Shown in pieces: positions 30,133 to 32,228 of a stretch of DNA of 32,228 bases. Under the pieces are notes generated by a model, which ran no database searches, was not told the origin of the DNA, and worked only from the letters and a program-made list of their open reading frames with translations. Made by a program: the position numbers and the translations under genes. This DNA comes from Desulfitobacteriaceae bacterium. GTDB lineage: Bacteria > Bacillota > Dehalobacteriia > Dehalobacteriales > Dehalobacteriaceae. The first letter of the stretch is position 1; every line of letters starts with the position of its first letter. Location of the stretch: positions 1 through 32,228 of the forward strand of contig JAQVXR010000008.1 in the NCBI GenBank assembly GCA_028709045.1, written 5' to 3'.

Positions 30133-30161
30133 ATTATAACATATGTATAAAAAAATATCAA
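30133..30161 (-). promoter_or_regulatory. Promoter of lexA
   Basis: On the minus strand TTGATA (30161-30156) and TATAAT (30138-30133) are 17 bp apart, with TGT before the -10 (extended). The -35 shares bases with the LexA box at 30159-30172. Confidence 0.75.
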
Positions 30162-30172
30162 ACAACTGTTCG
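30159..30172 (-). promoter_or_regulatory. LexA box of lexA
   Basis: The minus strand reads CGAACAGTTGTTTG, close to the Bacillus consensus CGAACRNRYGTTYC with two deviations. It overlaps the lexA -35, giving direct autorepression. Confidence 0.65.
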
Positions 30173-30216: not shown

Positions 30217-30230
30217 AGAACAAGCGTTCG
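30217..30230 (+). promoter_or_regulatory. LexA box downstream of the yneA-like start point
   Basis: AGAACAAGCGTTCG contains a perfect GAAC-N4-GTTC core. It spans the transcription start region and abuts the GGAGGTG ribosome-binding site. Confidence 0.8.
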
Positions 30231-30766: not shown

Positions 30767-32228
30767 TTATTGAATTTTAGCACCAATTACCTCTGTTAAA
30801 ATAGATCTTAGGCTTATAATTTCCATGTCGTTTATAGTTGCGCTACTTGGAGCCAGTTTATAACTTGTGTAAACCTTATTTTTGAAATTATTATCAAACG
30901 AAGCAAATTTATCGTTGTTATTAATTTTCACTAGTGTTTCGAAATCTTCTATATCAGTTACAATATCGTTCTCCGAAACTTCAATATCATAGCAGACAAA
31001 CTTATATATATGTCTGAATGGATGATTAATCTTCTTATGTAACGTTCCTTTTAACTCAATATATTTAGGTGCCCCTTGATATTCAATTACAAAATCAATC
31101 CCTTTAGTAGTGTCATAATCTAAAAGTTTAAACGGAAACAAATTTGGGTATTGAGCAATTATGTTTACTAACAGTACCAAAGTCTCAGACTCGGAATATC
31201 CAACTTTACGTTTGGTAGGTTCCATTAAAATTACTCCGGTAGGTAAAATAATGCTCTTTCTCTTCTTTACACTCCTAAATCTTTCTTTTAAGTTTCTTTC
31301 ATCTTCATCAATTGACGAAAGAGTATTTTCCATTTTTTCTATTTCAGTTCTTTCTTTAATTGCATCTAATATTTTTTTACTAGAAAAAATATCATTAACC
31401 TTTCGTTTTAAGATTTCAATTATCTCGATATTTGAATTATTAATGGACCCTCGATTTGCTGTTAATTCAAGGTCATCACAGTCAATAAAAGCTTGAATAA
31501 ATGAATAAGTACCTTTGCCGCCTTCTATCCAGTCATCTATTTTTTGGACAGGTATGCCACTTTTACATGCCCATAAGCCATATCTTTCGCTATCAGTATG
31601 AGTAATATCCGATCTCTTCCTTCCTCTTCTTGTTAATAGGATATCATATCGCCTTTTTGTTTCATATCCTTCAATGCTAATAACAAAGTTAAAATTGATA
31701 TTGTTTGAACAAGCAACCACTTCTTTGAAATTACGGCTATAAAATTCATAGTAAGCTTTATTACTACTAATCTTTTTGGCATAAGCTTTCATTTTAGTAT
31801 CTGTGTATCGCTGCTCAGGAAAATAATGTCCAAAAGATATAACTTCATACTCATTATTGTCAATAGTTTCAAATATTGGTATTGGATCTATGGCTTTTTT
31901 TCCCGAAAATTCATTTTTGAAACTCGTCATATTTAATCCATTTAAATAAAGTTTTATATTTCTATTCTTTAAGTCGTTATCAAATAGTGTTCTTATTGTT
32001 CCAAATACAGTAAACCATTTACTATAATCTCTAATACATTTGTGGTTCAGCTTAAACTGTGTATGCTGTGTTTTAAAATGTCTATGTCCAATGATCCTTA
32101 CATAAAAGCCCTGTTTCCATTCATTTGGGAGTTCGATACCTAAAGAATAGGGATCTTTGAAATCTGAGTAACGAATTGTGCCGTTTGTATCTATTTGACC
32201 AATAGGATTTAAAACCTCAACCGCCCAG
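30767..32228 (-). CDS. Large accessory protein, GHKL-ATPase-associated region plus PD-(D/E)XK-like nuclease domain (N-terminus outside window)
   Basis: The minus-strand frame is open from its stop at 30767 to the right edge (486 codons visible). The first visible Met (codon at 31930) is internal, because coding sequence continues for 99 codons upstream without a stop. The upstream part includes KWFTVFGTI. Further on, FIDCDDLELTANRGS resembles the post-ATPase region of GHKL/Hsp90-like ATPases, whose nucleotide site would lie outside the window. A charged helix (31355-31250) leads to a C-terminal domain with GIDFVIEY then YIELKG: Asp at 31094-31096, Glu at 31055-31057, Lys at 31049-31051, the D...ExK pattern of PD-(D/E)XK nucleases. 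The gene is much richer in A/T than its neighbours and breaks the conserved synteny, suggesting horizontal gain. A phage-defence or restriction role is inference only. Confidence 0.7.
   Translation of the reverse strand, partial: WAVEVLNPIGQIDTNGTIRYSDFKDPYSLGIELPNEWKQGFYVRIIGHRHFKTQHTQFKLNHKCIRDYSKWFTVFGTIRTLFDNDLKNRNIKLYLNGLNMTSFKNEFSGKKAIDPIPIFETIDNNEYEVISFGHYFPEQRYTDTKMKAYAKKISSNKAYYEFYSRNFKEVVACSNNINFNFVISIEGYETKRRYDILLTRRGRKRSDITHTDSERYGLWACKSGIPVQKIDDWIEGGKGTYSFIQAFIDCDDLELTANRGSINNSNIEIIEILKRKVNDIFSSKKILDAIKERTEIEKMENTLSSIDEDERNLKERFRSVKKRKSIILPTGVILMEPTKRKVGYSESETLVLLVNIIAQYPNLFPFKLLDYDTTKGIDFVIEYQGAPKYIELKGTLHKKINHPFRHIYKFVCYDIEVSENDIVTDIEDFETLVKINNNDKFASFDNNFKNKVYTSYKLAPSSATINDMEIISLRSILTEVIGAKIQ

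Follow-up and report, generated by a model that had tools for sequence, protein, structure and literature searches.

A 5'-truncated gene joining a GHKL/Hsp90-like ATPase middle part to a PD-(D/E)XK-like nuclease belongs to a sporadic family of putative ATP-gated defence proteins

The window analyzed here, 32,228 nucleotides from a Desulfitobacteriaceae bacterium, is an entire contig (C173) of a 2.8 Mb assembly in 305 contigs. A 5'-truncated gene occupies positions 30767-32227 on the minus strand, with a reading frame that stays open to the contig end. Its visible product comprises 486 amino acids and has its first internal methionine at residue 100, in agreement with the sequence-only reading that the gene is larger than this Met suggests. 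Judging from the alignment offset (G40 of the fragment corresponds to G161 of the full-length Breznakibacter homologue, L045), about 121 N-terminal residues lie off-contig, and a search of the other contigs of the same genome did not recover them. The low GC content noted earlier was evident (30.6% versus 42.5% for window positions 1-30540, GC3 24%), and the gene ranks among the lowest-GC 1.46-kb stretches of the window. Because full-length homologues (25–58% identity) occur in many phyla, the frame represents more than a chance opening.

An AlphaFold model of the fragment (pLDDT 88.7) delimited its domains, all encoded on the minus strand. A post-Bergerat transducer or middle domain (S5/Hsp90-M-like, about residues 40-265; 31433..32110), which Foldseek matched to Hsp90 middle domains and MORC3, contains the WFTVFGT segment (residues 71-77; 31997-32017) and the TANRGS motif (residues 256-261), whose TANR portion with R259 lies at 31451..31462. 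A long helical linker (residues 284-321; 31265..31378) joins the ATPase part to a C-terminal PD-(D/E)XK-like nuclease domain (residues 324-486; 30770..31258), assigned from conservation and a modeled E-alpha/beta-beta-beta topology. The predicted nuclease site consists of a first acidic residue, E346 (31190..31192), a putative catalytic aspartate, D378, in a G-I-D context (31094..31096), and an ExK motif, E391-L-K393 (31049..31057).

Searches with the window fragment against Pfam, PADLOC, NCBIfam, and the PDB returned no match, nor did single-sequence scans of genome contigs and IMG/VR or of phage records. The family was found only via a match on the mobilizable Caballeronia plasmid pSBC2-5, followed by an alignment scan. 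The plasmid protein, a 561-aa 'ATP-binding protein', shares 28% identity over 83% of the fragment (E 1e-48) and carries HATPase_c_3 at its N-terminus (Pfam); further members came from two haloarchaeal plasmids. Scanning 85,000 genomes with the alignment yielded 42 loci, which are spread over many phyla of bacteria, with haloarchaea and one Methanofastidiosia archaeon also represented. The proteins nearest to that of the window were from Breznakibacter (58% identity), a Sumerlaeota metagenome-assembled genome (MAG) (L034, 54%), and a Bacteroidota MAG (L033, 53%), and a Desulfosporosinus homologue was 41% identical. One genome (G336) holds a homologous gene broken into two same-strand pieces about 1.4-1.8 Mb apart (L072:3478-4110 and L073:4715-5800), and the two junctions, when compared, had no sequence in common.

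The relatives indicate what the truncated end of the window protein is likely to encode. Full-length relatives match HATPase_c_3/HATPase_c (Pfam), and the N, G1, and G2 boxes of the Bergerat fold, the motif for which the sequence-only reading had recommended looking, were each found in 46-47 of 47; the corresponding region of the window protein lies off-contig. Its missing part is thus predicted to be a GHKL/Bergerat ATPase, as in the Breznakibacter, Bacteroidota, and Sumerlaeota proteins. The AlphaFold model of the Breznakibacter protein (pLDDT 88.6) retrieved MORC3/MORC4, Hsp90, and TopoVI-B in Foldseek (E about 1e-8 to 4e-11). Foldseek searches against viral structures gave Hsp90-like and weak PD-(D/E)XK matches only. 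Profile alignment of the family with HtpG (HHalign probability 88%, p 3.3e-6) placed 'DLxLTANRGSI' on the Hsp90 'DxxLNxSREML' loop and R259 on the Hsp90 catalytic-loop arginine, which contacts the ATP gamma-phosphate. Given this alignment and the invariance of R259 in 51/51 members, TANRGS is most likely a nucleotide-sensing loop, in which R259 would act as the gamma-phosphate sensor. The family has in common with MORC and Hsp90/HtpG a Bergerat fold and a middle domain with a catalytic-loop arginine, but carries a nuclease in place of the MORC CW domain or the Hsp90 chaperone C-terminus. Assignment to MORC itself was rejected, the GhXhhpXXRhl motif of the S5 domain occurring in 0/51 members.

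The C-terminal half is probably a PD-(D/E)XK-like nuclease, judging by its E-D-ExK set of residues. In the fragment model, the long helix is followed by a helix-strand-strand-strand arrangement in which E346 lies at the helix start and D378 and E391-x-K393 in successive strands. Among non-haloarchaeal members, E346 and D378 are invariant in 37/37, and E391, K393, N401, and H402 in the 36/36 with residues at these positions. The pairing of a GHKL-type ATPase with such a nuclease in one polypeptide, proposed from the window alone, is thus borne out by the Bergerat domain of the relatives and the invariant E-D-ExK residues. TANRGS, WFTVFGT, and D...ExK are all present as reported, and the catalytic set is corrected to E346, D378, and E391-x-K393. 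The modeled secondary structure would fit an alpha-beta-beta-beta core with clustered Asp, Glu, and Lys: the predicted hairpin 377-383/386-396 sets D378 opposite E391, in a register inferred from the modeled strands, but no fold match to a known nuclease appeared among the Foldseek matches listed. The domain likewise had no significant Pfam or PDB match. By profile it is nearest to NOV_C/DUF3883, found in NO VEIN and sacsin-like proteins and presented in the literature as a new REase domain (PMC3710099). The two have a GxD...Y-[IV]-E-x-K layout in common and align in register (HHalign p 0.001; reversed controls 0.04-0.09), but the Breznakibacter protein reached PF13020 at E 0.076 and 13.5 bits, below the Pfam cut-off of 22.1, and the downstream region differs, the family having N-H-[SP]-F and C-W/Y-D.

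Among known systems, the closest functional parallel is VcSduA of Vibrio cholerae, in which GHKL and PD-(D/E)XK domains are likewise combined in one protein; its restriction of phage in Escherichia coli needs both the ATPase Glu and the nuclease Lys (PMC12137116). With VcSduA/paraMORC3 (Shedu type I-D; PMC12137116, PMC2292703) the window family has in common an N-terminal GHKL domain, a middle domain, a C-terminal E-D-ExK site, a stand-alone gene, and a sporadic distribution. Sequence similarity does not follow this architecture. The family has no SduA_C/DUF4263 (PF14082) match, and SduA_C aligned with its nuclease out of register (HHalign p 0.14). Comparison with the C-termini of three proteins (L057-L059), called paraMORC3-like by inference from their GHKL and IELKRP layout, gave p about 0.38 (0.14-0.39 across both comparisons). 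On the Shedu/paraMORC3 side, family alignment was confined to the GHKL part, with VcSduA itself outside the comparison. Shedu membership by sequence was rejected on the DUF4263 result. Kinship with the catalogued single-gene GHKL defence families (Shedu/VcSduA, MORC, MzaB) finds no backing in sequence. Since the three paraMORC3-like proteins also lack a PF14082 match (as does L061, discussed below) and VcSduA lay outside the comparison, the nuclease halves of the family and of paraMORC3/VcSduA may have a very distant common origin. The best reading is that the family would work like VcSduA/paraMORC3 yet is separate by sequence.

We hypothesize that the product of the window gene is a stand-alone DNA nuclease, gated by ATP and directed against incoming DNA, either phage or mobile elements, a reading that we regard as probable and that would place the protein in defence. 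The N-terminal GHKL domain would bind ATP and dimerize the protein as a clamp, as the family suggests, and the Hsp90/MORC-like middle domain would use R259, in the TANRGS loop, to sense the nucleotide once bound. The long helix could then relay clamp closure to the paired C-terminal nucleases, whose E346, D378, E391, and K393 would cut the trapped DNA; choice of target, with a trigger that tells foreign DNA from the cell's own, and protection against phage are proposed by analogy with VcSduA. An ATP-closed dimeric clamp that activates paired nucleases is likewise modeled on VcSduA. Counted against the ATP-gated nuclease are the position of the Bergerat half off-contig and its absence from the rest of the genome, a nuclease that matches neither Pfam nor the PDB, and the lack in the family of a fixed methylase partner that could spare the host genome. 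A defence role, as the sequence-only reading had it, is plausible by genomic context and by analogy with VcSduA.

Unlikely, though better placed than the other alternatives, is a restriction enzyme of type II or IV that itself recognizes a DNA sequence or modification, with the GHKL domain as an assembly switch and a methylase encoded elsewhere, as for BbrUII/HgiDII (NF050001). These enzymes also place a GHKL ATPase before an ExK nuclease in one chain, an order seen in L061-type proteins, and NF050001 matched the ATPase half of P0002 (E 2e-8, 33 bits) and of haloarchaeal members (E 4e-12), with no match to the Breznakibacter protein. The similarity is, however, confined to the GHKL domain and reaches 33-45 bits against a cut-off of 550, and membership was rejected on this basis, P0002 scoring 33 bits. 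Nor do bacterial members keep any conserved neighbour or partner gene, and neither a methylase nor an antitoxin-like small gene is retained beside them. A full BbrUII/HgiDII-family GHKL restriction enzyme (L061:64-2028, NF050001 760 bits) was observed in a genome of the window's phylum.

The distribution of the family bears on a second, quite improbable alternative, a housekeeping ATPase-nuclease for DNA repair or chromosome structure, similar to MutL or TopoVI and without a part in defence. Its fold is common to MutL and TopoVI-B, and the window gene lies near lexA. True homologues were nonetheless detected in 0/100 relatives and in 3/399 sampled genomes of the window's phylum, the window's own not counted, and the family tree mixes phyla with strong support. 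Gene GC was below that of the flanks in 27/28 loci (median −7.8 points, Wilcoxon p=5e-6). Together with plasmid and viral-contig copies, these results support horizontal acquisition of the window gene, as had been surmised from its composition and position. A link to DNA damage and SOS control, also raised earlier, finds no such support: the gene is convergent with a LysM/yneA-like gene, its own promoter lies off-contig, and the LexA boxes stand between lexA and yneA, leaving the gene outside the LexA-controlled pair. These are two LexA-box-like sites at window positions 30159-30172 and 30217-30230, one of them a perfect match. The least probable alternative, a toxin-like or abortive nuclease that degrades the cell's own genome upon infection, draws on the textbook frequency of ATPase-gated nuclease effectors in abortive systems but is opposed by the missing antitoxin-like small gene and by the analogue VcSduA, which protects at all multiplicities of infection (MOIs) without host death (PMC12137116).

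Several members lie within mobile elements or near defence genes, with plasmids, phage contigs, integrative elements, and R-M clusters all represented among the bacterial loci. One element (L074) carries integrase, ArdC-N, and OLD-TOPRIM genes adjoining the family member, and a member in an IMG/VR contig adjoins an integrase gene. In a DUF499 cluster of a spirochaete (L019:2917-15836), the member is flanked by the DUF1156 methylase gene and the PLD-helicase gene. AbiD, MzaA, and TIR-like genes were added by a PADLOC neighbour tally, which is descriptive, was made without a control set, and places known defence genes near only some members.

The haloarchaeal members form a branch in which the predicted nuclease site has been lost. 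In all 14, E346, E391, K393, N401, and H402 are changed, as is D378 in 13/14, whereas R259, K222, and W219 are kept. Joint loss of the site residues, with residues of the ATPase part retained, is what one would expect if these residues formed an active site. Nearly all of these members lie directly after genes for TGT-family and DUF6884 proteins, and the haloarchaeal TGT genes reach DpdA models only weakly. Helicase and PLD genes that match DpdJ and DpdK best are found close to some of the copies. The three-gene unit, in the order DUF6884, TGT-family transglycosylase, and GHKL protein, was observed at L004:6284-9548, L005:6751-9548, L035-L044, L046, and L047. This organization makes the haloarchaeal unit a candidate for a divergent, Dpd-like system of 7-deazaguanine DNA modification, to which the clamp may have been recruited. 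A broader and more speculative proposal, which we consider possible but doubtful, is that the family constitutes an unrecognized single-gene defence system in which an ATP clamp of the Hsp90 type serves as a DNA-recognition module that can be reused, driving a nuclease in bacteria and, with a dead nuclease and a DpdA-like transglycosylase, modifying DNA in haloarchaea.

The family provides a second, sequence-distinct group of GHKL-nuclease proteins beside VcSduA, with a clear predicted active site, and addresses the question of how an Hsp90-like clamp chooses what to cut. A full-length member is present in a cultured strain, Breznakibacter xylanolyticus DSM 6779 (L045). Combined with the naturally nuclease-dead branch tied to DNA modification, this makes the role of the clamp in target choice directly testable. 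A further member was observed in an IMG/VR contig (L076:9938-11671) directly after a gene for a 1452-aa tail-like protein; this phage-borne copy possibly serves inter-phage competition.
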